NCBI GenBank assembly: GCA_001969505.1
Contig: LSSK01001500.1
Coordinates: 1 to 21,490 of the forward strand
Origin: Zancudomyces culisetae
Taxonomy: Eukaryota > Kickxellomycota > Harpellomycetes > Harpellales > Legeriomycetaceae
Length of the DNA: 21,490 nucleotides
Direction of reading: 5' to 3'
Part shown: piece by piece, positions 1,137-20,574 of the stretch
Layout: every line of letters begins with the position of its first letter
Numbering within the stretch: the stretch's first letter is position 1
Notes under the pieces: generated by a model
Told to the model about the DNA's origin: nothing
The model's input: the letters and a program-made list of their open reading frames with translations, nothing else
The model's database searches: none
Program-made: the position numbers and the translations under genes

Positions 1137-4100
1137 ATGCAAGATTTTGAGGGGATCAAAGAAATACTGTTCGATTTTGAGGGGGTGAAGGATATGATAA
1201 CGAATATGAAGCATACGCAGGAGCATGAGGAGCTGAAAATAGAAGATCTAACCCTGATAAATGAAGATATTTTGGGACAATTGGCATTTGATCGCGGAAT
1301 GGGGGTAAGTGAGGACATAGAGCTTGGAGGGGAGCTGGAGATGAATGGAGATGGTGAGGATATTGAACACAAGCTGTTGGTAGAAAGTGTAATGCAGGCA
1401 TTGGGGCAGGCAAACAATGGGCTTGAGTTTGGAGAGAGGATGGTGGTAACACCGGAAATTTCAGAGATGGAACTTGGAATGAGAATAGATATGGGACTAG
1501 GAGACATTAGTGAAATGACTAAAATAGATCTTCCGAATGAGGGGCTAAAGAGAAAAAACAGTAAACGTCCAAGAGAGCTACAAGAGACAATAGAAAGTGA
1601 AGTGATATCTGGATGGTTGGATGAAACAAGTGAAATCAACAAGATAAGTGATGGAGAGAAAGAGAAAAAACGCAAGAAAAAGGAGGGGAAGAGGGGAGAA
1701 AATATGATTACGGGGTTGATTATGGACGCGGAACATATCGAGGATCTGGATACAATGGTAGACATACCAAAGTGGCTGCAGGATGTGCTGAGTAAAGGAG
1801 AGCAAATCCAAGAGATAGAACCTGTTGATTTGGGGTTCGATTTAAGCCAAAATCTAAACCTGGCCAACTTTGGAATTGAAGAGATGTTATTAGGACCAGT
1901 GAAGAAGGAAGGGGCCAAAGTGTATCAAGAGAGTGATGTGGAAGATATGAAAGACATGGGGGAGGTGGAGGAGACGGAGGAGATGAAGACGAGATCAGAA
2001 CTTGATAGCAAGATAGATGAATATAGCGAGGATGAGGAGTTAAATCGAGGACCGACGAGTTTTATAGGTGAAGACGGGATCCCATACTTGTCATTTTCGT
2101 ACACGGTGAAAGGGCGATTACAGCGCCACACAATTCGGCGAGATGTAGACAAAGTGAAGATAAGCGAAATTCCCGAGACGTTTCGGCTGCGCAATTGTGT
2201 GTACCCGCGGGCACACTGCAGTTTTGGCAACTACAGTGGGAATCGGTGGAAATATGAGACAGAGTGTAATGACTATGGGTGGCGGTTGGCCTTCCTAAAC
2301 CAAGAAAAATTGGCAGAGAAGCGTGGGATGTTACAGCGTGCAGTAGATAGCTACCGCAATCTTATGTTTGGACGCAAAAACCGGCGGACGAGCAAACAAA
2401 TGAAGCTGATGCAGCCAGAGTATGTTATAGGCGGTGGAAATGATGTGGAAAGTAGTGCAGCGGAAGAGAAGACCCGAGGGAGCAAAATTAAAGTGAAAGT
2501 CAAGGGTAAAGGTAAAAGCAAGGATAAGTCGAAAGCTAAGGGTAAAAACAAGGATGCTGTAGAAAAAATGAAGCTGGATGTGGGAGTAAAAGGGCAGGTT
2601 ATTGGTGATAATTCAGACATGGGTGGGAATGGCGATAGCGATAACGGCGTGGGTGCAGATAAGGACAGAACCAAGGAAGATAGTCTGGCATCTGCGTTTC
2701 GACAGCGATTCCTGCCGGCCAATCTGCAGCATGTGACAGAAACGTTCCACACAAGTTCGGATTTGCAGCCCAAAATGCTGCTGGTAGATGTGTTTTCGCA
2801 CTCGCGGTTCAATACGATTCGGATTAAAGCCGACATTGCCCAAGTCACATACGATGTACCCAAAAGTTTCATTGATGCTCATGCGCTATATCCTCGAGCA
2901 TCAGGAAAAAGCAAGGAGCGTTACGGCCCGTTGGCACTGGGTCGCTGGGCGTTTGAAGTCAGTTGCAATGAAATTGCGTGGAAACTTGCATGGCTGAACA
3001 AACCGCGGCTGACAAATCGACAGACCATTTTGCAAAAGTGTGTAGATGCATATCGGTGGCGAGTGTCCAGCCCACCCGTTTCTGCTCTACAATGTCTGGC
3101 ACATACACCCGAGGTTCATTCTGATCTCTTGTTTTTGACACTTTGGGTTCCCAGATGGGGCCGTAGGCAACTACTATCCAGAATATATCCAGACAATACT
3201 CAATCTTCCGCTGTTGACACATCACTTTCAAACAATACGAATCTTAAACCAAATATAAATACAAATACACAAATAGCCCTAAATCCAAACCCAAACCCAA
3301 ATCCAAATCCAAATCCACCTACAAATTCAGCTCCAAACCCAAGTCTAAATCCAAATATAGTTTCGACTTCCCTCACAGAATCCATTTCAAAAACCAACCT
3401 CAAAAAGAAACTCCCAAAGCCTAAAAGCACTAAAACTCTCTCAACTAAAAAACTCAAAAAATCACCTGAACCCTTACCCCTCCCTGCAAATACCAACAGC
3501 ATAAGCAGCAGCGACTCTACTCCTGCTCCTGCTCCTGCTCCTGACCTCTCCAACAATCCAGCTAACACTTTGCTTAATTCCAATTTACTTTCTATTCTAT
3601 CCAACCCAATCCACCACCAAAACTTTTTGATGCTCCTTAATTCTCTAACCCCATCATCGAACAACACCCCGCAAAATTATCAACAACAATCTCAGCATCT
3701 TTTACTACAGCATCTCTTGCTATTACAACAACATCAACAGCTCCAACAACTCCAACAGCAGCAGCAGCAGCAACAACAACCTGATCTTAAAAAAGTTGCC
3801 AAAAAAAAGAAAAAGTCTGAACAATCTCAATCCTCGTCTATACTCACTAAAAACACAATCTATTCAAAAGTTGAAAAATCGTCTTCAAAACCCGTCAGAA
3901 AAACCAAACTAAAAAAGAGCGCTAACAGTGCCGGAAGTATTAACCTTGCAATGACCTCGGCTCCTCAAAACCCATTGGCTACTGTCCCCATTGTCCGCAT
4001 CCCATCACCTTCCTCTCTTTCACCTCCAACTATTACCACTAACGTTTCCAAAACAACTACAATCGCCGTAAATAATACCTGCAGCAGTAGTAGTGTTGGT

Positions 4101-4583
4101 AATAATACCGGACCTGTAGATATGGGCCAGCCCTCTGTAAAACCAATAATTAGCATCAAGCCCAAACCTCCTCATCCATTCCCTGCTCACACCTCTATAT
4201 TACCTTCTACTTCTACCGTTAATACACACATGAATGCAAACCATACCTCTACTTCTAACCCAACTCCCAATCCCAACCCCAATCCCAATCCCAATAATAA
4301 TGCTAATACGTTGCCCTTGTCGGCCCTGTCGCCCTCGTCCGAGTCGAAAATCGCAAAACATGCTGCTTCGATCATTGCTGATGCTCTGTTGCGGCAATTC
4401 ACCAACAACAATCTCCTTGCTGCTAATCCAAATATTTCCAGCAACACCAATCCCATCACTACCACTACCACTGCGACTTCCAACCCAAGTACAGCCTCAA
4501 CACCAGCATCTAGTCTCAATACTGAAGATGGTGCTAGTGCTTCTGTGTCGAAATCTACTAGAAAAGGCTCTATTAATCTATAA
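1137..4583 (+). CDS. Fungal protein with two DUF8032-like domains and a low-complexity tail
   Basis: A single uninterrupted frame of 1148 residues. Residues about 1-318 are acidic and low in complexity and start with a small internal repeat, DFEGIK / DFEGVK. Residues about 319-409 and 548-643 are two copies of one domain. Both keep YPRA, then G-x-RW-x(Y/F)E-x2-CN-x2-(G/A)W(R/K)LA(W/F)LN, then L-x3-R and Q(R/K)-x-VD(S/A)YR. This pattern matches what I recall of the fungal domain called DUF8032, whose biochemical role is unknown to me. A Lys/Gly-rich linker separates the copies. Residues about 690-1148 are rich in Asn, Pro, Ser, Thr and Gln, with two Asn-Pro runs and a Gln run. The Lys-rich patches and disordered tail would suit a nuclear regulator, but that is inference. 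The gene ends 44 nt from the 3' end of the convergent NAT4 gene. Confidence 0.85.
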   Translation: MQDFEGIKEILFDFEGVKDMITNMKHTQEHEELKIEDLTLINEDILGQLAFDRGMGVSEDIELGGELEMNGDGEDIEHKLLVESVMQALGQANNGLEFGERMVVTPEISEMELGMRIDMGLGDISEMTKIDLPNEGLKRKNSKRPRELQETIESEVISGWLDETSEINKISDGEKEKKRKKKEGKRGENMITGLIMDAEHIEDLDTMVDIPKWLQDVLSKGEQIQEIEPVDLGFDLSQNLNLANFGIEEMLLGPVKKEGAKVYQESDVEDMKDMGEVEETEEMKTRSELDSKIDEYSEDEELNRGPTSFIGEDGIPYLSFSYTVKGRLQRHTIRRDVDKVKISEIPETFRLRNCVYPRAHCSFGNYSGNRWKYETECNDYGWRLAFLNQEKLAEKRGMLQRAVDSYRNLMFGRKNRRTSKQMKLMQPEYVIGGGNDVESSAAEEKTRGSKIKVKVKGKGKSKDKSKAKGKNKDAVEKMKLDVGVKGQVIGDNSDMGGNGDSDNGVGADKDRTKEDSLASAFRQRFLPANLQHVTETFHTSSDLQPKMLLVDVFSHSRFNTIRIKADIAQVTYDVPKSFIDAHALYPRASGKSKERYGPLALGRWAFEVSCNEIAWKLAWLNKPRLTNRQTILQKCVDAYRWRVSSPPVSALQCLAHTPEVHSDLLFLTLWVPRWGRRQLLSRIYPDNTQSSAVDTSLSNNTNLKPNINTNTQIALNPNPNPNPNPNPPTNSAPNPSLNPNIVSTSLTESISKTNLKKKLPKPKSTKTLSTKKLKKSPEPLPLPANTNSISSSDSTPAPAPAPDLSNNPANTLLNSNLLSILSNPIHHQNFLMLLNSLTPSSNNTPQNYQQQSQHLLLQHLLLLQQHQQLQQLQQQQQQQQQPDLKKVAKKKKKSEQSQSSSILTKNTIYSKVEKSSSKPVRKTKLKKSANSAGSINLAMTSAPQNPLATVPIVRIPSPSSLSPPTITTNVSKTTTIAVNNTCSSSSVGNNTGPVDMGQPSVKPIISIKPKPPHPFPAHTSILPSTSTVNTHMNANHTSTSNPTPNPNPNPNPNNNANTLPLSALSPSSESKIAKHAASIIADALLRQFTNNNLLAANPNISSNTNPITTTTTATSNPSTASTPASSLNTEDGASASVSKSTRKGSINL
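3282..3317 (+). repeat. Asn-Pro codon repeat (first copy)
   Basis: A run of alternating AAY CCN codons encoding six Asn-Pro pairs inside the disordered tail of the 1148-residue protein. The DNA looks like a 6-nt microsatellite (AATCCA / AACCCA) and may vary in length between strains. Confidence 0.75.
3753..3779 (+). repeat. Polyglutamine codon run
   Basis: Nine consecutive Gln codons (one CAA, five CAG, three CAA), preceded by further Gln/Leu/His codons from about 3726. It lies in the low-complexity tail, just before a Lys-rich patch. Confidence 0.75.
4257..4295 (+). repeat. Asn-Pro codon repeat (second copy)
   Basis: A second run of Asn-Pro codons in the same protein, about 950 nt after the first and with mostly CCC rather than CCA for Pro. 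The different codon usage suggests independent expansion rather than a recent copy of the first run. Confidence 0.7.
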
Positions 4584-4627: not shown

Positions 4628-5828
4628 CTATTGTAAAAGTATAATACTCAATATCTCATATCCACCGTCTTTATCCTGGCCATCACCACCTCCGCTCTCC
4701 TTCTTGGTTTCCAGTTTTTTGTTTACATCTGATGTTTCATCATACATAATTCCCAGCCTCCTGTAAAATTTTCCAGCTTTTATGTTATCTATCATATTTA
4801 CACACATTTCTTTGTAAGCAACTCACTTTATATGTATATTTTAACACTTGTACATCTTTTTCAATTTTTAAAAAAAGAAACCTCCCTACCTTTGAAATGT
4901 GTCAGCATCAGTTTTTTTAGCTTGTACTTTCTTCCAAGCTCAAGCATAATGTCAATCATATATCTTCCGAGGCCTTGGCTTTGATATTCTGGCAAAATTT
5001 GTATTTCGTAGCTATTTCATTAGCATTCTCGTTATTGTTTTAGGCAGTTACAGTAGTTATAAACAGTTTACACATACCAATAAATAACAGGGATTTCCTT
5101 CCGATTACACTTTTCAAAGTCAAAACGGAAACACAAAAAGCCAGCAAGACTTTCTTGCTGCAAACACTGAGCAGATATATTGGCTACACTATTACTAAAA
5201 GTTTCTTTGTCGGTATTACTGGCTTTGGTGTGAGCACAGTTATGTGGTATTGTGAGTATAACGAATCGTGAACTTCTGCAAAATATTTCTCGCTCCTTGT
5301 GCTTTCTATTCCAGCCGAGGCTCGAACATACATAGCTAGTTGACAATTTACAAGTTTAATAGGTAAGGTACACACACACACACATACACACACACATATA
5401 TATATATAATACATATTGTATGTATTCAAAAATCAAGCCATAAACATTATTGTACTTACTACTCTAAAACGTTATTTTCAATCAAATCAATCATTTTCTC
5501 TTTCAATTTCTCTTCGAGCAGTCGATGATCATTTATCCCCACAGCCTTAAACACACACATATCGACATTTTGTTCAATACTTCCCGAACTTGGCGAGTAT
5601 TTCAAATAAAATCTAGTATCTGGCTCTTCCAAACGTAACAGTGGCAGTTCGCGGTTTATATCGATCTATACGAATTTGCAAACAAAAAAAAAGTTGAAGA
5701 TTTGTGAGAAGATAACAGGTAGGGGGAGAGGGAGGGGGAGGAGTGTGAACACATTTTATTTTGATTTATTAAGTAGTGCTGACCTTTTTGCATATTTCAA
5801 TAAGTTTTTTGTCTTTTAATGTTCTCAT
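4628..5828 (-). CDS. NAT4: Histone N-alpha-acetyltransferase Nat4/Naa40 (NatD), five exons
   Basis: Exons, in coding order, are 5784-5828, 5460-5665, 5078-5335, 4890-5011 and 4628-4788 (792 nt, 263 residues). All joins keep frame. NatD acetylates the N-terminal serine of histones H4 and H2A from acetyl-CoA. Family landmarks run in order: LIEICKKIDINREL near residue 10, VDMCVFKAVG, the LGW..K.KE block at about 89-98, FLCFRFDFE, VIYCYEIQ, the acetyl-CoA loop Q180-S-Q-G-L-G185, KLMLTHFKDN at about 204-212, FYRRLG and a C-terminal GYEIL. Three of these blocks (EYVCSS, YCYE, FKDN) appear only after splicing, which strongly supports introns 2-4. Exon 1 is less sure because its donor is GTCAGC. Compared with human NAA40 there is an insertion of roughly 25 residues before FLCFRFD. 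The gene converges on the gene ending at 4583. Confidence 0.88.
4789..4889 (-). other. NAT4: NAT4 intron 4
   Basis: 101 nt, donor GTAGGG, acceptor GATAG. It splits the Asp codon of FKDN after its first base. The join restores the Naa40 block FK-x-N...FY-x2-LG. Confidence 0.8.
5012..5077 (-). other. NAT4: NAT4 intron 3
   Basis: 66 nt, the shortest intron in the window. Donor GTATGT; acceptor AATAG with a TGCTAAT branch-like sequence only a few bases upstream. It splits the Cys codon in YCYE after its second base; without splicing the frame reads YWYV then stops. Confidence 0.9.
5336..5459 (-). other. NAT4: NAT4 intron 2
   Basis: 124 nt, donor GTAAGT, acceptor ACTAG. The donor lies across an in-frame TAG that splicing removes. 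It splits the Tyr codon of LEYVCSS after its second base. It contains the CA/TA microsatellite at 5371-5408. Confidence 0.87.
5371..5408. repeat. CA/TA dinucleotide microsatellite
   Basis: An alternating CA run (with one TA interruption) passes into an alternating TA run. It lies wholly inside NAT4 intron 2. Alternating purine-pyrimidine DNA of this kind is slippage-prone. Confidence 0.85.
5666..5783 (-). other. NAT4: NAT4 intron 1 (probable)
   Basis: 118 nt, acceptor TATAG preceded at a distance by a strong C/T-rich tract on the coding strand (complement of 5719-5742). The donor GTCAGC is unusual; it is the only GT between the putative first exon and its in-frame stop. An intron is required because a TAG lies directly before exon 2, and the spliced KKIDINREL fits the family. 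Confidence 0.6.
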
Positions 5829-5858
5829 TTCATTTCATTGCGTTTCGTTTCGTTTCAT
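5825..5858 (-). promoter_or_regulatory. Chain of three micro-uORFs overlapping the NAT4 start
   Basis: Reading the minus strand, uORF1 starts at 5858 (seven codons, stop 5837-5835), uORF2 starts at 5838 (two codons, stop 5832-5830) and uORF3 starts at 5833 (two codons, stop 5827-5825). The stop of uORF1 overlaps the start of uORF2, and the stop of uORF3 overlaps the proposed NAT4 start at 5828, both as ATGA. They arise from a TTTCG/TTTCA pentamer repeat. A role in translation control is inferred and depends on the mRNA 5' end. Confidence 0.45.
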
Positions 5859-6119
5859 TGCGTTTATTTACAGTATTATATATAATAGTTTTTTTAACAA
5901 GTATAAATCAAGAAAAAAAAGGTGGAAAAACAGTAAATTATTACAGGTAAAGAGAGTATTTAAACCAACAACGTTGGACCTCACTTTTCTATATATATTT
6001 TTTTCTCGTTTGAATCAAGTAAACAACTACCAACAATCAAAATACCCAGAATCTTTCTTGTTTGTTGGTTTTTTTTTAATACCTCTCTGGTCATATCATC
6101 AAAATCAACAAGTAGATTA

Positions 6120-8511
6120 TCAGTGTCCCTTTGTGTTAATAACAATCTTGCAGCCCTCTCCACATGCCTTTTCAAGAATACCACTACTAGTTCCGCTCTT
6201 GATATTAATAGTATGCTTTGTATTGTCATTTTTTAGTTTTACATCTCTCTGCCCACTTTCACTTCCTTTTCTATTAATGTTGCTATTGTTATTGATGTTA
6301 TTGTTATTATTTACAGATCCACCTCCACTCCCACTCCCACTCCCACTTCCATTTCCACTCCCACTTCCACTTCCACCTCCGCTTCCACTTCCACCTCCTG
6401 CAAGATTGTTATTAGCATTGTTAGTTATTTCTATAAGTATATTGTTTTCCACAACACTGGTTATCGTCACTGTGGAATTTGATGGCGTACCTGTGCCACT
6501 GCTAGTGGCAGTACTGACACTGGTAGTTTGACTGGTAACCTCGCTAGTCGATGACAATGGAGATTGTGAGATCTCATTTCCAACTACACCTTGATCGGTT
6601 GGGGCACTACTCGTGGTTTCAACACTACAAGTACCGTTTGTAGTGGTCTCACTACTCATTTGACTAGCTATTTCGCTAGTCATTTCACTGGTGGTTTCGC
6701 TAGTGGTTTCGCTAGTCGATGGCAATGAAGACTCTGGAATCTCATTTCCGACTACACCTTGATCAGTGGGCGCACTACTAGTGGATTCACCAGTAACTTC
6801 ACTGACTGTTTCACTAGTAACTTCAATGGTGGTTTCGCTAGTAACCTCGCTAGTAATTTCACTAGTAACTTCACTGGTAACATCGCTAGTAACCTCAACG
6901 GTGGTTTCGCTGGGCGTTTCGCTGGCAATCGCGCTAGTAGTCTCGCTGGCGGTTTCACTGGTAACTTCACTAGTTATGTCGCTGGTAACTTCACTGGTAA
7001 CTTCACTGGTAACTTCGCTAGTAACTTCACTGGTAACTTCACTGGTAACTTCACTAGTAGCTTCGCTGGTAACTTCACTAGTAACTTCACTGGTAACTTC
7101 ACTTGTTATTTCACTCGTAACTTCGCTGGTAACTTCACTAGTAACATCACTGGTAACATCACCTGTTATTTCACTGGTAACTTCACTTGTTATTTCACTC
7201 GTAACTTCACTTGTTATTTCGCTGGTAACTTCACTGGTAACCTCGCTAGTGGTTTCGCCAATAGTTTCGCTGGTTGATGTCAGTGGAGACTCTGGAATTT
7301 CATTCCCAACAATTCCTTGCTCGCTTGAACTGCTACTAGAGCTAACTGGAATTGATGAAACGGATAGTTGCACGGTTTCCACTGAACGGGTAACTGTTTC
7401 TACAACTGGAACAGTTGTTGTTTGTGAAGCAGTGGATAATGAAACAAATTCTGTTTCTACCACCGTCATTGATACGGTGCTTGGAGGTGCACTTGTTGAT
7501 TCAGAGGGTGTTTCTGTGCTCAATACAGTAACATCTGTGGATACTGGAATTGTCGTGGTTACTGATTCAATCGTCAGCATAGTAGTTGTCGAACGCGAAA
7601 GCGTTGTCTGCGTGGTGGTTTCAATGGTGCTAGTTATTGTCACTGTTATTGTAGTTGTTTCCAGAACTGTGGTAGTTGTGGTCGATTTGTACTTTATTTC
7701 TCCTTCTGGCAATAACTCGGTCATAGCATCTGTCGATGATATTTCGGGAATACCTACTTCGTTTCCAGCTATACCCTCGGTCATTTCACCCTCTACACCA
7801 CTTTCCTCCTGTGTTGGCTCTTGCCCTTCTGTGTCAGAGGGGGTAGACTCAGTATTTTCTGAAGTATCCTCTTTTGAGGATAATTCACTATCCGACTGGT
7901 CCATTATTTGTTCTGTATCACTTGATGTATCTGCATCAAAGTTGTCCACTATATGTGTTATTTGCATATTTTATCTAGCCACTTGTATGAAAATGGTTTA
8001 TTGGTAATAAAAAAAGAAAAACAGTACACATTAACTTACCTTCTTCCTGTCTGAATCCTATAGCCTTTCTTGCTGCTGACCTTTTTAACGTATCACTTGT
8101 ACGGGTCACCATTGTTATATGTCTGTTATTGTTGCCATTGGGTCCAACAGTAGAGCTGGATTTGTGATAAGGAGTTGAATATATAGGAGGCACAGTACTC
8201 GTAGGGCTAAAATCTTCTTTGATAATATTCGCCAAAATATATCTTTTTCGGTTGTTATGTTCAGTTTTGATGCTAGTCGTAGTTGACATATAAGAATTCA
8301 TGTGGGTGCTGGCTCGTGGATATGTAAAATCCGTGGTGGAGTGTGTACCGCCAGAGTAACTGGTTTGTATTTGTAGTGTGTTAACTGTAAGGCTGTCGTT
8401 TCCCGGATTTTGATAAGTTTCTACGCTTCGATCCGTATATATTGGCACACCACTTACAAGCAGTGCTTGTAGTGTTATAAGTATATTAACAAAATTTTGA
8501 ATATTTTTCAT
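6120..8511 (-). CDS. Secreted Ser/Thr-rich mucin-like repeat protein, two exons
   Basis: Exon 1 is 8040-8511 and exon 2 is 6120-7948 (2301 nt, 766 residues). The protein starts with a hydrophobic, signal-peptide-like segment (about residues 4-22) and is then almost all low complexity. An acidic segment follows the splice junction, then a Thr-rich stretch, a long (S/T)-E-V-T tandem repeat, and a Gly-Ser linker followed by poly-Asn. The motif QG(I/V)VGNEI occurs three times, plus a related EGIAGNEV, each marking the start of a block. The C-terminus has a Cys pair (ACGEGC) and no hydrophobic GPI-type tail. It looks like a heavily O-glycosylated wall or surface protein, but no named family was recognised. 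Unspliced, exon 1 ends with a stop at 7975. Confidence 0.75.
6319..6407 (-). repeat. Gly-Ser codon repeat
   Basis: On the minus strand a run of GGN and AGY/TCN codons encodes a Gly-Ser linker with one Asn, followed by Asn-rich sequence. It separates the mucin-like part from the short Cys-containing C-terminus. Confidence 0.8.
6784..7272 (-). repeat. 12-nt coding minisatellite, (S/T)-E-V-T repeat
   Basis: About 40 degenerate 12-nt units (plus-strand form GGTAACTTCACT) encode Thr-Ser-Glu-Val/Ile repeats. The unit length is a multiple of three and the unit lacks stops in several frames, so copy-number change keeps the gene open and long antisense frames appear by accident. Confidence 0.9.
7949..8039 (-). 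other. Intron of the mucin-like gene
   Basis: 91 nt, donor GTAAGT, acceptor ATATAG. It joins QEE to VDNFDAD by splitting a Val codon after its first base. The nearer acceptor CTAG at 7964-7967 would lead quickly to a stop, so the downstream TAG was chosen. Confidence 0.75.
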
Positions 8512-8734
8512 TGTTGCGATCCAGACATACGCCTATATTGTTATCGACAATCCTGTGTGTGACTACTTTTGTGTATACTCTTTTTGATATTTTTTAAAAC
8601 CTTGATATACTACGTATAATATAGACGATATATACAACTACTATTATTATTTATTTACAAGAAAAGTATATCAACGTTTGGGTGTAATATTTAAAAAAAT
8701 GTATAAAATCAAATGTAAAGAGCACGAGCTATTA

Positions 8735-8742
8735 CTTTTATA
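8735..8742 (-). promoter_or_regulatory. TATA box candidate for the mucin-like gene
   Basis: On the minus strand TATAAAAG fits the yeast consensus TATAWAWR and lies about 225 nt before the start codon at 8511. The match is exact, but such octamers are common in AT-rich DNA. Confidence 0.4.
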
Positions 8743-9369
8743 AAGAATTACCACCAAATCAAACGATATCTCTTCTAATAATAGTTGAAATAAATTAATG
8801 GGCTCGATGTTGTGGGATATCGTTTTCTAGCTATCATCAATAAAGTAAAGACAAATCAAGTATTAAGGAGCTATCCAGGAACAGAATTTGCGAGGTATAA
8901 CATTGAACAGATTCCAATACTACTATGCCAACTGTTGGTATTGTGGATGAATACGCTAGCCAAACCATTAAATCCGAGAAATAGTGCCAGTCTAGATGAA
9001 AGTGTACTGGTTCGGAAACAAAAAAAGTGTGTGAATTGCAAAAGACTTTATTAGACAATGCCCAGTACGCATATACTCAAGTACGATAGGAAGCTGTAGT
9101 GCAAAAAAAGGCAATCGAAGCTATAAAAATGGGCCAGATCAACTGCGGTAGAGAAAATTATAATGTAGAAACTAGGCTTTTGTACGGTTGTTAGACCAAG
9201 ATAAGGGCGGAGAGCGGGGTTTTAAGAATTAAGGAAAAGTAAATGGGTAGGCAAGTGAGAAGGATGGTATGGGTTGTGAATGGCTAAGACTTGGGTTCGC
9301 ACAGTTGCTCTTGGCTGTGTGTAACTTTTTTTTTTGTTTCCCCTACTTTTCGTTTTTTGATTATTATTA

Positions 9370-9389
9370 GGGGGTGGGGAGGAGGGGGG
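9370..9389 (+). repeat. G-rich run, possible quadruplex
   Basis: Runs of five, four, two and six G separated by single T or A bases, in RRP9's 3' flank. It might fold as a G-quadruplex, but only three clean runs of three or more G are present. Confidence 0.35.
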
Positions 9390-9691
9390 ATGAACTATGC
9401 GGTTCTAATTGTAATGCTATGACAATCTTGATCTAGATGTGTGTAATAAAGACCGCAATAAAGGCATAGCCAATCAAATACAATTTTTTTGGAAGAATGT
9501 TCTGTTGGAGTAAAAAAATCAGCTGAATAGGTTTTTTTTTCTAGATCAAAAAAGAAAATTAGAATATAAAGAAAAGAATGCGGAGATGTGGGTTTGCAAT
9601 GCCAAAGCTGGCCATCCAGGTATTATCCCAGAGTCAATGGAGGGAAAAGTGTCAAAGCGTAAATATTTATTAATTGTGTAGTAGCGTTTGG

Positions 9692-11858
9692 TTAAAATGA
9701 TTTAGGATAAAGTTTATAAACAACTAGCGAATTTTTAGAAGTAGGAATTCTATTCCATCTGCCAAGTCTAGGCTCTTGACCTACAGCCACGGCTATTGTC
9801 AAGGCGCTTGGGGATAGAATTACAGGATTGTCATTTGCATGCGGGTGAGATGATGACTTTGCCGCGAGTGAAGAGCCGAATTTGGAGCTCTTGTTCTTGG
9901 ATGAATCCGCTTCATGAATTGCGACATCGTTAATATAACCGTCCTAAATTATCGGGAAAAATGGAAGAATTCGGTTAGTCACAAGTTGAATAGAAAAAAA
10001 AATACAGTGCCAGAAACCAAAAATAAAGGTAGAGTATAGAGAAAACTTACAATAGGGATGACGTTAACCAGAGAAAAGCCGAGCAATTTATTGGAATTGA
10101 TTTTCCATAGTCTCAAGTAGCCATCGTTGGATCCAGACACAAACAAATCAGTTAGCGGAATGGCACAAAGGGAAGAAATCCAGTTAGGCAGATATCCATC
10201 ACTGTCACTGCCATCTGAGGAGCATTTTTGAACACCGTGAGCCAAATGGAAAGTAAAAATTGGCTTTTTTCTGCGAAAACTCCACAGACAAATGGCTCCA
10301 GAATCACCACCAGTAACAAAAGTCTCCTCGTCTATCATTGCAACACAGTCTACACTTCCTTCCCTAAATTTCTTGGATTTAAGCAACCGCAGACTTGTGT
10401 TAAATGAGGCTAACACAGATCGAACAGATCTATTTACACGCTCTGCTTTTCCATTGCTACTCTCGTTGTTGTTTTCTGTTTCAAGATCTATTTGGTCAAC
10501 CATGTCCTCTTGAAGGTCCAGCTCATCTTCTTTTGAGACGTCCAGCTCGCCAAATCTAATCTTTTCGATTACATTTGAAGGTTCGGTAACAACACCAGCT
10601 CGGAACACCATCTGAGTTTCGTCCACAATTTTCCACAAACGAGCAGACTTATCGCGAGCACCAACAGTAACGGCCTGGTCGCGCTGGATGGTAGATATGC
10701 CAGTTATAGAATCCAAATGACCAAACAATGTTTCCATATACCCAAGTTCGTCGACGTTCCATAGCTTGACCATACGGTCCAGTGAACACGAATATAGCTG
10801 ATTATGACCCTTTCTGAATACCAACCCGGTCACAGCATCCTTGTGCTGTTTGAATTCTGCGAGATGATCCATAGTTTTGGCGTTCCATATATGTATTAGC
10901 TTGTCTTTTCCTCCTGTAGCCAAGTATTTACCATCTGATGATACTGCCATACAGTAAACCTGATCTCTATGCCCCAGTGTTGTATCCTTGCAGGTCTTCT
11001 TTTGTCCCTTGATTGAATTTATCTTTTTTCCCGAAGAGACTTCCCCTGTTTATTTTTAGTTAAATTTAGTCGTTTAGTAGTATTCACGTACTGCTACAAA
11101 TTAGGTTAAAAAAATATAAATGATACTGGCAATAGTACTTGAAAGCTAGACTTACATTTAGCAATGCTTCCATCCTTAGACCCACTAAACACATACTTTC
11201 CATCTTCTGTAATAGTTGTGCAGGTTACTGCTAAATGGTGGCCATTCTTCAGTACAAGCGCTGAATCCTTATTTATAGTATACTTGAAACTGTCTGCTAT
11301 CCGTTTATATATCCGTCCTTGTGTTTTCTCTAAATCGTCCTGTAGTCGTTCTGCTATAATATCCCGATCTATATCTGCTGCATCAAACCCTTCGACCATT
11401 TCTGCCCCCTTTTTGAGGTTTTCTACATATGCTCGCGCTACTTCAAGCCGTTTTTGTGCGGCAGTCTCTGCCGAATAATCCCCGTTTTCTTCGCCATCTT
11501 CTTCCTCGCTGTCTTCTTCGCTGCTGCTTACTTCCTCGCTACCTGATTCGCCTCTCTTGTTTTCAGCACCACTACCAGGCTCTTCGTTTTCTTCACCTTC
11601 AAGATCGTCAGAATCTACCTCCTCATCGTCATATTTCTCTTCAAACTTGCCTCTCTTCCTATCACCAGATCTTCCACCACCAAATTTACCACCACGACCC
11701 CCACCGACTTTGCCTCTGTTTGACTGCCCAAAAGATCTAGACTTGTTGTTTGTTCTTTTAGTGTTATCTCTTGTATTCTTCCCTTTATTTTTGTTTTCGG
11801 TTGGGGCTTTCCTTTTTCTACCTTCACCTGGTAGTGCAAAAAATCGGTCTTTAGCCAT
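9692..11858 (-). CDS. RRP9: U3 snoRNP WD40 protein Rrp9 (U3-55K), three exons
   Basis: Exons in coding order are 11156-11858, 10051-11045 and 9692-9943 (1950 nt, 649 residues). Rrp9 binds the U3 snoRNA in the small-subunit processome of the nucleolus and is needed for 18S rRNA maturation. The protein opens with MAKDRFFALP, then a basic Gly/Arg/Lys-rich segment and an acidic Ser/Glu tract (to about residue 130). After that come a helical segment (RLEVARAYVENLKKG...) and WD40 blades from about residue 205 to the end. Diagnostic pieces include SGSKDGSIAKWEVSSGKK (completed only by splicing), VGARDKSARLWKI, MVFRAG, SGSNDGYLRLWK and the last-exon block AVGQEPRLGRW. The third exon supplies the final blade and the stop at 9692-9694. 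It is divergent from TAF1 across 1.18 kb. Confidence 0.92.
9944..10050 (-). other. RRP9: RRP9 intron 2
   Basis: 107 nt, phase 0, donor GTAAGT, acceptor TTTAG. A branch-like GACTAAC lies about 30 nt before the acceptor (CTAAC is the complement of 9974-9978). Reading through gives a hydrophobic tail and an early stop instead of the conserved last blade. Confidence 0.9.
11046..11155 (-). other. RRP9: RRP9 intron 1
   Basis: 110 nt, donor GTAAGT, acceptor AACAG, with branch-like TACTAAAC upstream. It splits the Trp codon of AKWEVSSG after its first base. It is the only intron here with a CAG rather than TAG acceptor. Confidence 0.92.
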
Positions 11859-12223
11859 ATTCGCTTCCCAAAAAATATTAATTTAACTATACTTTTTCTT
11901 TTGTTTAGCTGTACAGGCAATTCTCTGGCTCAATTTTAAATGGGTAAAGTTGTAAATGTAGTGTTTTCCTAGCTGAAGGTTGTAGTATTCGATTTCTTTG
12001 ATTCTTGGAAGTACCAATGATTGACGCTAATCTTTATATTCACAAAATCGTCAAAATTATCCACAATTAGAGCTTTCCCTTATGTTCTTCTCTCTATTTG
12101 TACAGGTTACGTTATTAAATTATTTACAGTTCTGGAAATGAGTAATATTTTGCTGACCTAGTTTATAATCTAATTACAAATATGTTTAGACTCACTAACC
12201 AAGCTCATATTCATCAACTTGTG

Positions 12224-12240
12224 AAAAAAAAAATTTTTTT
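12224..12240. promoter_or_regulatory. A10T7 tract junction, RRPE-like
   Basis: Ten A followed by seven T, flanked by GTG and CAG, about 365 nt upstream of RRP9 and 800 nt upstream of TAF1. The core contains AAAAATTTTT as in RRPE sites of ribosome-biogenesis genes. Function is inferred. Confidence 0.4.
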
Positions 12241-12310
12241 CAGAAACTTTTGAGGATTTAGGTTTGCTGATTTGCTTTTTTCCGCTAGAACAAAAAAAAT
12301 TTCGGTCTAT

Positions 12311-12328
12311 AAAAAAAAATTTTTTTTT
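12311..12328. promoter_or_regulatory. A9T9 tract junction
   Basis: Nine A followed by nine T, a perfect palindrome, 70 nt after the A10T7 tract. It is the second member of the pair in the RRP9/TAF1 divergent region. Confidence 0.4.
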
Positions 12329-13041
12329 AACTAGCATTAGCTATAATGAGAAACTATATAAAAAATGTCACATGGCCATAATAGTGGTAGAGCCAGCAGT
12401 TATATTGTGTTCATGTTGGCTTGGTTATATCATGTTTACAAATAAATGGATATTCCAGTGTCAGACATTAGAGTGGTATTTAAATGGCCGATAGTGTTAT
12501 TAGCCGCTTATAACGGTGTATACAATCCATATGGTATCAATTAACTACAAAGTCTTTGGACTAAGCCTTGTGTAGTATTTCTGCTTTTATATAGCCGGTA
12601 GCAACAGACGCGAATGAAAAGCTTGTTAAAGAAAGAATTTTAAGAGTGATGTTCAATAATTGCTCTTGGAAATCTAAAATCCGCGACCTGGTGCAAAATT
12701 GAAATCAAATGTATATTGATTCGTGTTTATTTATTTTTTTTCATTGCGCTTTTTAATGTCGCATTCAGTCAAGGATTTTTGAAAAGAAAAAAAAATTCGA
12801 CGGTTTTCTGGGTTGTGGGAAAAAAAAAACAAATGCAGGATAGAATATAAATAAATAGGTACAAAATAGATACAAAATTAGGAAAACACACGAATTTAAT
12901 GCTTGTAAATCAAGCCTCCAAGACTGCTAAGATGAATTATTGAATCAACATCGACCGAAGATAAGGCGAGTGAAATAAGACAATATCAACCTGTAAATAG
13001 AAAAAAACGAACGAACGAAGAATAAGAAAAAAACAGGGAAA

Positions 13042-16000
13042 ATGTCATTTGCAAAGTTTCTGTTTGGAAATGTTGATGAGTCTGGGAAACTAGACTTTTC
13101 GGACATGGACGATGAGATGAGGGAGGTGTTTTTGGAAGTTGGAGAGGAGGGAAACAGATTTTTAGAAACCGCATTGGACGATATTATGTTCAACAATGAT
13201 ATTGCGGAAGGCGTAGACAAAAAACAGACAACTTATACTACATTCGATGAGGATAGGAGTCGAGGTAGAAGCATGGAAATTGTGGAGAATGGTGCTGGTG
13301 GTAATGTTGGTGGCAAAAGCGTCATTCGGCAGAAGGTTAGATTTGAAAATGCGTATGAGGATGATGAGTATGATGAGGAAACAGAAGCTGACGAGATCGA
13401 AGAGGAAGAAGAGGAGGAAGAAGAAGAAGAAGAAGAGGTAGATGAAGAGGGAGCGAGAGGTAGAGATAAAGTTAGTGGTGATGTGAAGATGAGTAAGCAA
13501 GCACCGATAATAAAACGGAGACACGAACATGAAGATTATGAGGAGGAAGAGGAGGAGGAGGAAGAAGAAGATCGAAACAAAGACCAATATATGGGACTGT
13601 TTTCTGGTTCTGAAGAGAGCGAGATAGAGGAGAGAGATACAAGTGAAGACAGAAAAAGTGAGAATTTAACTAAGGAGGCTGTAGATGAACGAGAAAGGGA
13701 GAAAACAGCAGAGTTGTCGATGGGCTCAGAAATCGAAAGAGAGCTTGAAAAAATAGAGGAAGAGGAGGAGGAGAAGCGAGGACAAGAGCAAGAAGAAAGC
13801 GAAAAGGTGGCGGGATCAGAAACAGAGCCAGAGATGGAGATGGATGCAATGGAGGAGGGGGCTGAGGTGAAAGATTATGGACTTCGACAGGCAATATTAA
13901 AAAGAAAAAAATTGGTTGAAGCAAACCACAAAAATTTTACCGATATATTTGGATATTATATCGAGCATAAAATAAATAGAAACAAACGGAAATATCCGCA
14001 AATAGAAATTAAAACGGCAGACAGCAAGTTGTGGGAAATAAACAGGAAAGTTAAGAAGAGCGTTAACTATTTAGAAGAGATTACAAGTAGGTTAGAACGT
14101 ACACGGGAGGAAGAGGGAAGAGTAAATACATGGAATGATGTGAATTCAGGGGGGGTAGAGGTCGATAGAAGCATGTTTGGAATAGAAGTTTTAGATTGGG
14201 AAAAAGACATACGCTTCGAAAAACCAGTAGGAGAGGAAGATGGACCATGGAAAGTAGAAGGCCGGAGTATTAGGCCAATAAATATCAATTTTATGAATGG
14301 AGGCTGGATAGAGGACATACGGTTTGACATGGCTAGTGAAAAGGAAATAATGGCTATAAAGAAAAGCATTGAGCGAGGAATAGGGAGCAGAGAAGCAGAA
14401 GCTGGAGGGAAGCTTGAAAGAATAGGGTTAGAGGAGACAGGGGAAGGAAGAGGTAACAGATATAACATCTCCAACGATATGTTTTATGAGGCACTACAGG
14501 AAGGAAGAATAACAAGGGTACGACAGACATTTGGGCAGCTGGTAGTGAAGCATTCGGTTCCAGTGGTGAAATTACTGAAGCCGTTTTTCAAAATACGGTT
14601 TACAAAACAAGAATTAAGGGAATGGCACCGACCGAGATTTAATGTATATGAAAACACAGAGGCAACAAGTGGGGATGTAAAGATTCGATTTAATCGAGTA
14701 CGGAGTTCGAAGAAGAGAAAACACAGAGGTAGAAGTGAGGCACTTTGGAGTGGAATGGACATTACGTTGCGAGATAACAGTGAGATTGTGCTGGTAGAAT
14801 ACACAGAAGAATTTCCACCGCTGATGTCGAATGTGGGAATGGGCTCTGTACTGGTAAATTACTACAGAAAAGTGGATGACAAGGACACACATGTTCCAGA
14901 AACACGGCTTGGTGAGCTGTTTGTGTTGGGTGTGGCGGACGTTTCACCGTTTTGGGGGTTTGGAAATGTAGAATCAGGGCAAATGATGGCGGTTTTGTAC
15001 AACAATTTGTTTAGGGCACCGCTTTTCCAACAACGGCCGAACAATAGAGATTTTTTGGCCATTCGATTCAAAGCAGAAAAAAACAACAGCCGGTATTATT
15101 TGCGATCGATTCCACATTTTTTTGTAGCGGGGCAAACGTATCCGTTGATGGAAGTGCCTACTCCACATAGTCGTCGCGTGACTAATATAATCAAAATGAG
15201 GTTGCAAGTAGCGGCGTATAGACTAATAAATGAAAATTTACATCACTTGCTGAACTTTGAAAAACTAATCGAGATGTTCCCAGAATACAACGATGCACAA
15301 ATTAGGCAGCGACTCAAAGAGTTTTGTGAGTTTCAAAAAAAGGGGGCAGGTTCAGGATACTGGCGTGCTAAATCCAATATGCCGGTTCCTAAGGAAGAGA
15401 ATCTGCGTGAGATGCTTAGTCCTGAAATGATTTGTCTGTTTGAAAGTATGTTGGTAAGTCAGCTGCACTTGATGGACTTGGGTGCGGCTAAAGCGGCCTC
15501 GTCCGGAGCACATAACGATACTGATTCGGTTGGTAACTATAGCTACAACGATCCCCAAACACCTCAACCAACGCCTGTGAATGCCACTTCTTGGCGGCCT
15601 GTTGACGAAGCGTCGTCGCTGGCGCCATCTTCGATGGTACATACCCCGACTGAAGAAAGACTGGCCAACTGGAACACAACGCGCAATTTTACAAACGCTA
15701 CACAGGGCAAGGCGATGCTGCAGCTGTGTGGTGAAGGCGATCCATCAAATATTGGATGCGCATTCAGTTTCCTGCGTGTTAGCATGAAAGATATATTTTT
15801 GCGACCTGGTGAAGATATTGAAACAAAGCTAGCTGAAATCGAATCGCGGCCAAAGAGTGCGCATCGGTACAACGTCGCTGAGCAGCAGGAAATCTATCGT
15901 GAGGAGATTGATCGTATATGGAATGGCCAACTGCGGCTGCTCTCTTCGCCATCCTCCCTGTCGCTATCACTATCACTGTCACCATCATCTTCGTATGTAC

Positions 16001-16905
16001 CTTCTGCAGTAAAGCTTATTACCAGTTGTAAGCACCATTGCAGTGAAAATGAGAATTTGATTGTTCCCAAGTCTGGCGATCCATACCTTCCTCTTTTTCT
16101 CACCAACAATAATGTCAACAATACAAACAATAGTAATGGCGGAAAGTGTTTTGAAATTTCCAATCTATCAACTAACCTTCCTCTGAACAAACCCACAGTT
16201 CCTCCTCCTCATCAAACAAGCTTTATCGGCTACAATTCAAAGATGCTTACCAAAAAGCGCTTGGTAATTAAACGCAAAATACGATCTGCAACTATCGGCC
16301 CCTCTGGTGAATATACATATTCATATTCGGTTGAAATTCTAACAGACCCTCAAGTAATTGAGGCATACCTGCGACAGAAATACATCATCCATCAACAACA
16401 AAAGGAAAATGCTCTTAGGGACAGCGAAGCCATTGCCAAATTGAGGTTATCCAAGCATTGTAGGGCAAAACACTATTCAAAGTTATTATCTTCACACATG
16501 AGCACTTTTAGCTTGTCCTCGCAAATTCAACAACAACAACAACAGCAGCAGCAACATCAATTCTCCCAAAATGCGTCCTCTCTCAACTACGGGTACGGCT
16601 CCGCTAATGATCCAAATACTGGTAGCGGTATGACATTCTCTACCGCGTCCTCCGGTGCTGATGGAGCATTTAATACACCTGGTAGCCTTAGAGCAGATGG
16701 TTCTTTCTCGGGATCGTCGCATCATCTCAACTCCCTAAATGTCAATACCAGCCTGAATACAAATCAGAATATTATGCCCACTACACCAGGTGCATCAACA
16801 CCGCTTTCCTCTACTGGATCAAGAAGATGTAGAAACTGTGGAATGCTGGGCCACATGAAATCAAACAAAAAATGCCCCAGGTATTACGAGTTTTACCCTT
16901 CGTAA
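13042..16905 (+). CDS. TAF1: TFIID subunit TAF1
   Basis: An intronless frame of 1287 residues. TAF1 is the scaffold subunit of TFIID, contacting TBP, TAF7 and promoter DNA in the nucleus. The N-terminus FAKFLFGNVDESGKLD matches the TBP-binding TAND1 region of animal TAF1. Residues about 105-270 are Glu/Asp-rich and disordered. The DUF3591 core spans about residues 375-965: HSVPVVKLLKPFF, WHRPRF, EYTEEFPPLMSNVGMG, FVAGQTYPLMEVP, the winged-helix-like IRQRLKEFCEF, LANWNTTRNF and YNVAEQQEIYREEIDRIW. After a Ser/Leu run there is a short conserved segment (KRLVIKRKIR), then a polyglutamine/Ser/Asn-rich stretch. A CCHC zinc knuckle follows: C1263-x2-C1266-x4-H1271-x6-C1278, nine residues before the end. 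No bromodomains follow the knuckle, as in yeast Taf1. The link from CAFSFL to YNVAEQQ is short compared with human TAF1. Confidence 0.96.
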   Translation: MSFAKFLFGNVDESGKLDFSDMDDEMREVFLEVGEEGNRFLETALDDIMFNNDIAEGVDKKQTTYTTFDEDRSRGRSMEIVENGAGGNVGGKSVIRQKVRFENAYEDDEYDEETEADEIEEEEEEEEEEEEEVDEEGARGRDKVSGDVKMSKQAPIIKRRHEHEDYEEEEEEEEEEDRNKDQYMGLFSGSEESEIEERDTSEDRKSENLTKEAVDEREREKTAELSMGSEIERELEKIEEEEEEKRGQEQEESEKVAGSETEPEMEMDAMEEGAEVKDYGLRQAILKRKKLVEANHKNFTDIFGYYIEHKINRNKRKYPQIEIKTADSKLWEINRKVKKSVNYLEEITSRLERTREEEGRVNTWNDVNSGGVEVDRSMFGIEVLDWEKDIRFEKPVGEEDGPWKVEGRSIRPININFMNGGWIEDIRFDMASEKEIMAIKKSIERGIGSREAEAGGKLERIGLEETGEGRGNRYNISNDMFYEALQEGRITRVRQTFGQLVVKHSVPVVKLLKPFFKIRFTKQELREWHRPRFNVYENTEATSGDVKIRFNRVRSSKKRKHRGRSEALWSGMDITLRDNSEIVLVEYTEEFPPLMSNVGMGSVLVNYYRKVDDKDTHVPETRLGELFVLGVADVSPFWGFGNVESGQMMAVLYNNLFRAPLFQQRPNNRDFLAIRFKAEKNNSRYYLRSIPHFFVAGQTYPLMEVPTPHSRRVTNIIKMRLQVAAYRLINENLHHLLNFEKLIEMFPEYNDAQIRQRLKEFCEFQKKGAGSGYWRAKSNMPVPKEENLREMLSPEMICLFESMLVSQLHLMDLGAAKAASSGAHNDTDSVGNYSYNDPQTPQPTPVNATSWRPVDEASSLAPSSMVHTPTEERLANWNTTRNFTNATQGKAMLQLCGEGDPSNIGCAFSFLRVSMKDIFLRPGEDIETKLAEIESRPKSAHRYNVAEQQEIYREEIDRIWNGQLRLLSSPSSLSLSLSLSPSSSYVPSAVKLITSCKHHCSENENLIVPKSGDPYLPLFLTNNNVNNTNNSNGGKCFEISNLSTNLPLNKPTVPPPHQTSFIGYNSKMLTKKRLVIKRKIRSATIGPSGEYTYSYSVEILTDPQVIEAYLRQKYIIHQQQKENALRDSEAIAKLRLSKHCRAKHYSKLLSSHMSTFSLSSQIQQQQQQQQQHQFSQNASSLNYGYGSANDPNTGSGMTFSTASSGADGAFNTPGSLRADGSFSGSSHHLNSLNVNTSLNTNQNIMPTTPGASTPLSSTGSRRCRNCGMLGHMKSNKKCPRYYEFYPS
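16528..16554 (+). repeat. Polyglutamine codon run in TAF1
   Basis: Nine mixed CAA/CAG codons followed by CAT CAA, in the disordered linker before the zinc knuckle. Confidence 0.75.
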
Positions 16906-18321: not shown

Positions 18322-18525
18322 AAACTAAGAATTTTCCCGTTCATACTTTCTTTGTTCCGTTTACATTCATTAATTTAGTTTTAACTTGTTTCAGGTTCAG
18401 TTTAATTTTCAGTTTCTGATGCTGATTCTGGTTTTGTTAAATATCTAATACTCAATAAACAGGTACAAGCGCGAATATTTTTATCTTTTCATCAAATAAC
18501 TATACAGAGTTTGCACAAAGCAAGA

Positions 18526-20574
18526 ATGATACAAGGTATACGAAAAAATCACCTACCAAGCAAAACTAATATCACTTGGTTACTATCTGTATCAAGATCG
18601 TATTCGGGAATAACCGGCGCAAAGAGCGTTTATGGGTCATGTGCTACTTCTGTTGCCCCATCCACTGTTTGGAATAAACAAAGAGCAGTCAATAGCGTCA
18701 TTTCCAGAAGTTACTCCCAGGGCCAAAGTGCAGACCAAACTGAAATCCAACAACCCACCAAAGAACAGGTCAAGTATATAACAGAAACCATCAAGCTAAA
18801 TGATAAGAGCTACCTAAAGCACGCAACTCTCGGCCAGTTGCTGCGAAACTCATTTGTATATTCTTGCTGCACTATCCCATGGCTGGTGAACAACTCGCTG
18901 AAACTTATCGAGTTTACTGAACGCATCCATTTGAGTTGGCTCAGTCACTGGTTTATCAAGAGGACGTTTTTTAAGACATTCTGCGCAGGGGAAAACGAAC
19001 GTGAGATTGTGGGCAGCATGAAACGGCTGAAGGGGCTGGGTATCAAATCAATTTTGGACTATTCCGTAGAATCGGATTTGAAAAAAGATGATGATGCTGG
19101 TAATGGTAAGGCTAAAAGTGAAAATGAAGTCATTGAGGAAGCCAAAAAGGCGATTGACGATCTTGTTCAGGAATATAAAAAGAGCATTGATATGGCAGCG
19201 CAGCAACGCGATTCTTTCGTTGCTGTTAAGGTCACTGGGTTGATTACTCCTGATAGTCTGTATAGACTATCCACTTTATACGAACCAGTGTTGAGGAAGG
19301 GATACAACGACCTGGTTATCAAGGCGAGTAATGGAAGTATAAAGAGTGTCAAAGACATAAATGGATTGGAAAAGATTGACCTTACTCAGTTTAAGACTGG
19401 AATCCTAGAAAAACTACCAGGGTATAGCCACAATGCCAGTAGTGTAGATGTACAGAAAATATTTAGTAGTATAGATAAAGATGGCGACGGATATATTGAT
19501 TTTATAGATCTAATGATGGGAATGGGATACTCCAACAAGTTGGTTCGCAATCTTTTCCTAGCACCACCACACTCAAAATCAACCTCGCAAGCAAAGAAGG
19601 ACGATGATTCTGGTATTCGCCCACTGGACTTGGAATTTTATGACAATTTGACTGAAAGGCTCAGGGAGATTACAATGTATGGCATTCAAAAACGTACCAG
19701 GATCATGGCAGACGCAGAACATTCATACTTCCAGCCTACAATAGATCAAGCCGTGTTGGAGGTCTGTGAAAGTGTGAACAAATTTACCAGTACCAATGGT
19801 AGCAACAATTTCCAGGTTGACCCGATCCTGTACAACACGTATCAGCTGTACACCAAGAGTGGGTTGTACAGATTGAAGACTGATTATATCAGGTCGGTCA
19901 GACAAGGCTGGGCATTTGGTGTCAAGATAGTCAGAGGCGCATACATGGCATTGGAAAACGCCAGGGCTCTTGAACTTGGCTATGAAACACCAATCAATGA
20001 AACCTTGCAAGCTACACATGATAGCTATAACGGAGCTATTGAGTTTTTGTTGGGAAAAATAGCCGAAAGTAAGACAAAGGCCTTGCAAATGGTGCAAAGC
20101 TCTAATGAGGCAAGCAAAGTTATTTCTGTTAACAATCCGGCCATTTTTATTGCTTCACACAACCACAACTCCATAAAATTGGCTATTGATAGATCGCAGA
20201 AATTGGGACTGATAACTAAACATGACTTTTCAGACACTGACAAAAAAAACAAAAATGTAGTAGCTGATTGTTCAAGAACTCTGGGTTTCGGTCAGTTGTT
20301 TGGTATGCAGGATGGAGCTACTAGCTACTTGGCCAATTATATGCTGGCTGCAGAGATTGATGCCACTAGCGGCAACAGTTCACAACTACCCAAGGCATTC
20401 CCTTCAGCCAAATCCCTCCATGTTTACAAATATGTTCCATATGGGCCAATTGCAAAAGTATTACCATATTTGATCCGCAGAGCACAAGAAAATTCGGCTG
20501 TTTTGGACACAGTCAAAGATGAAGTTAGACAGATCAACAACGAAATCAAATCAAGACTCTTTTTCTCTTCATAA
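18526..20574 (+). CDS. PUT1: Mitochondrial proline dehydrogenase with EF-hand
   Basis: 682 residues from the ATG at 18526; the frame is open a little further upstream, but only a TTG precedes it. FAD-dependent proline dehydrogenase oxidises proline to pyrroline-5-carboxylate at the inner mitochondrial membrane. The N-terminus (about 65 residues) is rich in Arg, Ser and Lys with few acids, as in a mitochondrial presequence. Catalytic-barrel motifs in order are DAEHSYFQP (from 396), NTYQLYTK, KIVRGAYM (467-474), ASHNHNS (from 543), FGQLFGM (from 588), YKYVPYGP (from 634) and LIRRAQEN, whose paired Arg match the substrate-binding pair of the family. Residues 317-328 (DKDGDGYIDFID) form a canonical EF-hand loop with Asp at positions 1, 3, 5, 9 and 12, between the N-terminal part and the barrel. 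It is longer than yeast Put1 (about 476 residues). The gene converges on LCB1. Confidence 0.95.
   Translation: MIQGIRKNHLPSKTNITWLLSVSRSYSGITGAKSVYGSCATSVAPSTVWNKQRAVNSVISRSYSQGQSADQTEIQQPTKEQVKYITETIKLNDKSYLKHATLGQLLRNSFVYSCCTIPWLVNNSLKLIEFTERIHLSWLSHWFIKRTFFKTFCAGENEREIVGSMKRLKGLGIKSILDYSVESDLKKDDDAGNGKAKSENEVIEEAKKAIDDLVQEYKKSIDMAAQQRDSFVAVKVTGLITPDSLYRLSTLYEPVLRKGYNDLVIKASNGSIKSVKDINGLEKIDLTQFKTGILEKLPGYSHNASSVDVQKIFSSIDKDGDGYIDFIDLMMGMGYSNKLVRNLFLAPPHSKSTSQAKKDDDSGIRPLDLEFYDNLTERLREITMYGIQKRTRIMADAEHSYFQPTIDQAVLEVCESVNKFTSTNGSNNFQVDPILYNTYQLYTKSGLYRLKTDYIRSVRQGWAFGVKIVRGAYMALENARALELGYETPINETLQATHDSYNGAIEFLLGKIAESKTKALQMVQSSNEASKVISVNNPAIFIASHNHNSIKLAIDRSQKLGLITKHDFSDTDKKNKNVVADCSRTLGFGQLFGMQDGATSYLANYMLAAEIDATSGNSSQLPKAFPSAKSLHVYKYVPYGPIAKVLPYLIRRAQENSAVLDTVKDEVRQINNEIKSRLFFSS

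Follow-up and report, generated by a model that had tools for sequence, protein, structure and literature searches.

The window, a 21,490-nt stretch of Zancudomyces culisetae DNA that forms contig C562 of a 23.1 Mb assembly, carries on its minus strand a gene in five short exons, which we assign, with a probability of about 0.93, to the NAA40 family of N-terminal acetyltransferases (NatD; Nat4 in yeast) and whose product would be about 263 residues long (table 1). Its host belongs to the Harpellales and is described in passages of two papers as an obligate gut symbiont of aquatic insect larvae (PMC12611240, PMC5954228). The spliced open reading frame sums to 45 + 206 + 258 + 122 + 158 = 789 nt, or 263 codons, followed by TAG, and re-reading of the sequence reproduces the five minus-strand exons, GT..AG borders and 263 residues of the original prediction. 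The latter had also held that no single frame in this region is long; indeed, among the stop-to-stop frames that carry NAA40 sequence, the longest spans 95 codons (5355-5068). All four introns end in TAG, and donor 1 is weaker than the other three. Intron 3 cannot be read through, though its length is a multiple of three, because it holds an in-frame TAA.

Table 1. Parts of the gene model, with positions in the window, and histone copies located elsewhere in the genome (G000)
Feature	Position or locus	Strand	Description
Exon 1	5784..5828	-	45 nt, 15 codons; MRTLKDKKLIEICKK; start codon 5828-5826
Intron 1	5666..5783	-	118 nt; GTCAGC...TATAG
Exon 2	5460..5665	-	206 nt; N-terminal region to helix preceding SSLGW loop
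Intron 2	5336..5459	-	124 nt; GTAAGT...CTAG; contains AT/TG microsatellite
Exon 3	5078..5335	-	258 nt; SSLGW loop, long insertion, FRFDFE, VIYC
Intron 3	5012..5077	-	66 nt; GTATGT...TGCTAATGAAATAG
Exon 4	4890..5011	-	122 nt; YEIQ strand, acetyl-CoA loop QSQGLG, MLTHFK
Intron 4	4789..4889	-	101 nt; GTAGGG...GATAG
Exon 5 and TAG stop	4628..4788	-	coding 4788-4631, 158 nt; DNIKAGKFYRRLG...YEILS; stop 4630-4628
Intact H4 copies	L009, L010, L011 (C449, C655, C232)		start MTGRGKGGKG
Two closest H2A copies	L022, L023 (C530, C433)		starts MSGGGKSGGK, MAGGKSGGK

Several other features lie in the same window. An open reading frame of 1148 residues on the plus strand (1137-4583) stops 44 nt from the NAA40 stop, making the two genes convergent; a motif like YPRA...NRW.YE.ECN..GW.LA.LN occurs in it twice, alongside long tracts rich in Q, N and P. 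It gave no Pfam match at E <= 0.1 and no NCBIfam match over the cut-off, the NCBIfam search having been run with two proteins and having returned nothing over the cut-off for either. Directly upstream of the NAA40 start lies a small ATGAAACG/ATGAAATG repeat (5829-5870, minus strand) with several ATGs, each soon followed by a stop, and tiny upstream frames are possible there if transcription begins before those ATGs. The minus strand also encodes a Ser/Thr-rich protein with long TSEVTSE repeats (6120-7967), whose other allele differs by a 12-nt indel in a Gly/Ser tract. Further along the plus strand are a TAF1-like gene (13042-16905), with a match to DUF3591, presumably the TAF1 core, at E 3e-162, a TBP-binding match just below the cut-off and a CCHC zinc knuckle over it, and a proline dehydrogenase gene (18511-20574) with an EF-hand-like stretch whose matches fall below the Pfam cut-offs. 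EF-hand domains occur in some Coemansia homologues of this enzyme, and its next relatives are those of Smittium and Spiromyces (37-40% identity). A tRNA scan of the window found none.

The NatD-type identity put forward in the original prediction is supported by several comparisons. The spliced protein matches Pfam Acetyltransf_1 (PF00583) with 43.1 bits, against a cut-off of 20.7. In a phmmer search of the PDB, five NAA40 sequences, human by sequence comparison, come first (E 7e-11 to 3e-10), followed by C825.04c (PDB 4ua3; E 6e-8), which from its gene name we take to be Schizosaccharomyces pombe Nat4, and then by PAI 1 at 4e-3; no Saccharomyces cerevisiae Nat4 entry is among the PDB matches. 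Other N-terminal acetyltransferases reach E-values of 0.25 or worse (the GNAT-family entry 6wqb 0.25, NAA50 0.26, NAA30 0.72), so that by this measure the protein is closer to NAA40 than to them. Since the best match has an E-value of 7e-11 and its alignment to NAA40 spans junctions 3/4 and 4/5 with a gap at neither, chance is very unlikely. Against the assignment, the protein's N-terminal 111 residues alone have a best PDB match of E 0.91, to S. pombe Nat4, and its C-terminal 54 residues alone gave no match in the PDB.

The active site points the same way. D127, E129, Y136, Y138 and E139 (human numbering) are all identical to human NAA40 in the alignment (5/5); according to passages of PMC7790372 and PMC12265263, the first four contact histone residues 1-4 in human NatD, and catalysis depends on E139. 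What the DNA itself shows is the exon arrangement at junctions 2/3 to 4/5, an acetyl-CoA loop of GNAT type and the residues predicted to serve NatD substrate binding and catalysis. The loop reads QSQGLG, i.e. QxxGxG, and Q is the usual GNAT alternative to R at its start. The Naa40 loop is given in a passage of PMC3174195 as RxxGxG/A, from which the present one differs at position 1, with Q in place of R. NAA40 has been described in organisms as far apart as yeast and human, so the gene adds one more fungal member to an established family: a conserved housekeeping gene, ordinary in kind.

The exon chain itself was compared with its alternatives. GT and AG choices in hand-set windows at each border were enumerated, and 16 chains that kept six anchor motifs, varying at donor 2, donor 3, acceptor 3 and acceptor 4, were scored against an NAA40 profile of 16 vertebrate sequences, namely human and 15 picked from the best 120 of 659 relatives; the named proteins among those best 120 are vertebrate. 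The predicted chain ranks first of the 16 with 52.7 bits (next 48.6, lowest 15.7), and acceptor 4788 surpasses acceptor 4776 by 8.8 bits. Intron 1 had one donor and one acceptor in its windows, so the enumeration is no test of it. When the window was scanned in all six frames, as 790 stop-to-stop peptides of at least 15 residues each, exon 4 alone matched the profile unaided at E <= 1 (E 3e-6); the other exons are recognised through the chain. Junctions 2/3, 3/4 and 4/5 are well supported, as had been argued from family blocks restored across them, although the block quoted for the first of these, EYVCSS.GW, was wrong: the junction reads EYYVCSSLGW.

Exon 1 is the weakest part of the gene model and is weakly supported. 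It brings no gain in profile score (52.7 bits for the full chain, 52.9 when exon 1 is dropped), and the score that the first 30 residues reach against human NAA40, with ICKKID of the N-terminal region aligned to VCAKVD, is equalled by 79 of 2000 shuffles. Immediately before exon 2 its frame is closed by a stop codon, so translation has to begin either in a preceding exon or within exon 2. Scanning 6119-5700 for first exons joined to acceptor 5665 gave three phase-compatible candidates including exon 1; the two others both begin at 6094 and would be joined through longer introns, of about 370 and 420 nt.

A second copy of part of the gene bears on this exon. Contig C463 (18,323 nt) is 99.3% identical to window positions 5396-14400 over the 9,000 bases compared and, given this identity, is most likely the other haplotype; it starts inside intron 2 and covers exons 1 and 2. 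The second allele (L018) carries two substitutions in exon 1, both synonymous transitions, no change in exon 2, and in intron 1 a 2-nt indel and one substitution in a G-run. As 14 of the 42 possible transitions in exon 1 (start codon excluded) are synonymous, two such changes would both be synonymous by chance about once in nine, which counts in favour of the exon. One NAA40 gene and one partial allelic copy were found in the assembly; for exons 3-5, the assembly search returned the window itself only. Both haplotypes seem to have been kept in places by the assembly, another instance being C449 and C655, which are identical over 3,309 nt.

Three other readings of the locus have to be weighed against the five-exon NAA40 gene. 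An unlikely one, though the only rival with appreciable weight, keeps the gene and changes its exon set, through an intron that splits exon 3, a different first exon or a start at the exon 2 Met. Exon 3 might hide another intron: without the 66-nt GT..AG stretch 5219-5154 (donor GTAATA, acceptor CAAG) the chain scores 60.0 bits against the profile, where it had 52.7. Exon 1, with its weak donor, contributes nothing to the score. Against this, the acceptor would be CAAG where all four modelled introns have TAG, three other in-frame removals from exon 3 gain equally (58.6 to 60.1 bits), as trimming of an insertion would, and both allelic changes in exon 1 are synonymous. As a gain is expected whenever an insertion, such as the one that exon 3 has relative to vertebrates, is trimmed, as 43 in-frame GT..AG removals were tried over all exons and as the acceptor is CAAG, we keep 5219-5154 as coding and regard the extra intron as an alternative, not a correction.

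Far less probable is a decayed copy of NAA40, a reading to which the empty protein database search described below would lend itself, and which we reject: the five exons are open, every splice site is GT..AG, catalytic and substrate residues are retained, and where the alleles were compared, over exons 1 and 2, they differ by synonymous changes only. Nor did the 23.1 Mb of assembly searched contain a better NAA40 copy, although 27.8 Mb is the size given in a passage of PMC12611240 and the assembly may be incomplete. Most improbable of all is a different GNAT, such as a polyamine or bacterial-type acetyltransferase. The fold is common to GNATs, and NCBIfam does return PaiA (6.5e-7) and RimI (3.8e-6), both far under their cut-offs; but seven orders of magnitude in E-value separate the best NAA40 match from the first entry of another kind, and this gap, together with the conserved NAA40 substrate residues, leads us to reject other GNAT families.

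The NAA40 gene may have escaped correct annotation. A search of a protein database with the spliced protein, over 384 candidates of 0.55-1.75 times its length, returned no match at E <= 0.001, so a correct full-length model appears to be absent from it. The same database holds the Z. culisetae proline dehydrogenase, with which the one encoded in the window shares 100% identity across 99% of the length, so that a conserved gene in exons of 45-258 nt yielded no match where another protein of the same fungus is present. The expectation that a simple gene caller would leave the region empty or call a wrong fragment is consistent with the empty search, although a shorter or mis-spliced fragment may be annotated. 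Z. culisetae is reported, in a passage of PMC12611240, to be without about 20% of the expected single-copy fungal genes, and some of these genes may simply have been overlooked in annotation.

The histones of the same genome raise the question of substrate. With human H4 as query it yielded four matches, and the same intact protein is encoded by three of them (table 1); as two of these three copies sit within stretches that agree over 3,309 nt, the distinct intact H4 loci number two. The fourth copy, L012 (C1:2358-2654), has an internal TAG and altered residues, its open segment begins past the N-terminus and its DNA is ~93% identical to an intact copy over 370 nt; it is probably a pseudogene. 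Human H2A gave six matches, of which the two closest (80% identical) are listed in table 1; the other four are 49-67% identical, have N-termini outside the starts read and are perhaps H2A.Z-like. No SGRG start was found among the H4 starts and the two closest H2A starts read. SGRG is, according to a passage of PMC12265263, the motif that human NatD needs, small departures from which severely impair it.

One H2A start, SGGGK, is exactly the optimum of human NatD in a peptide library, Ser-Gly-Gly-Gly-Lys, as given in a passage of PMC3174195, whose authors note that the assay tends to miss arginine. Drosophila H4 likewise starts with Thr, according to a passage of PMC3916430. The string TGRGKGGK was met, by abstract or passage, in Drosophila histone papers only, while TGRGK is absent from the matches listed in a broad literature search on Thr-starting H4; since TGRGKGGK is known from Drosophila histones, an H4 with Thr1 is not unique to Zancudomyces. 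No paper treating Zancudomyces together with Naa40 was found in the literature search. By analogy with its family, the enzyme would acetylate histone N-termini co-translationally, its likeliest targets being the SGGGK-starting H2A copy and, provided that Thr1 is accepted by the fungal enzyme, also the TGRGK-starting H4. That specificity has shifted together with the histones, an enzyme with Leu for W90 acetylating both TGRG-starting H4 and SGGG-starting H2A, is a tentative proposal that may well prove wrong.

Set beside human NAA40 (PDB 4u9v, 4u9w, 9rg7), the Zancudomyces protein has in common the GNAT core and the motifs FRFD.E, V.YCYE.Q, MLT.FK.N..A..F.R and YEILS. It differs in a long extra loop preceding FRFD, in an additional Gly/Asp/Lys-rich loop ahead of YEILS and in having no Cys/His-rich tail. 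Human W90 is replaced by Leu, while W92 is retained; in the one aligned stretch compared, S. pombe Nat4 likewise has the SS-x-GW loop, W92 and a residue other than Trp (Phe) at the position of W90. We take the loop tryptophan missing from two fungal clusters of the family to be this W90. A passage of PMC7790372 describes these clusters, 47 and 222, as being without a conserved loop Trp and suggests that fungal specificity may differ. Trp at human position 90 (alpha1-alpha2 loop), where the present protein has Leu, would then mark the animal-type subgroup, cluster 20 of that paper. If the cluster Trp is W90, its replacement by Leu excludes the animal subgroup, not the NAA40 family.

For the NatD-specific N-terminal helix-loop-strand (human residues 24-51, passage of PMC8037211), the Zancudomyces protein offers the ICKKID/VCAKVD alignment with the shuffle score given above. 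Human NatD docks on the ribosome via a basic N-terminal helix together with K93/R95, as stated in a passage of PMC12716425; the N-terminus here is much shorter (MRTLKDKK) and the second patch reads NRK. S. cerevisiae Nat4 acetylates an H2A without SGRG (SGGK), whereas human NatD does not, according to a passage of PMC12265263. A NatD placed beside H4 tails of the TGRGK type and H2A tails of the SGGGK or AGGK type offers a natural test of how strict the SGRG rule is.
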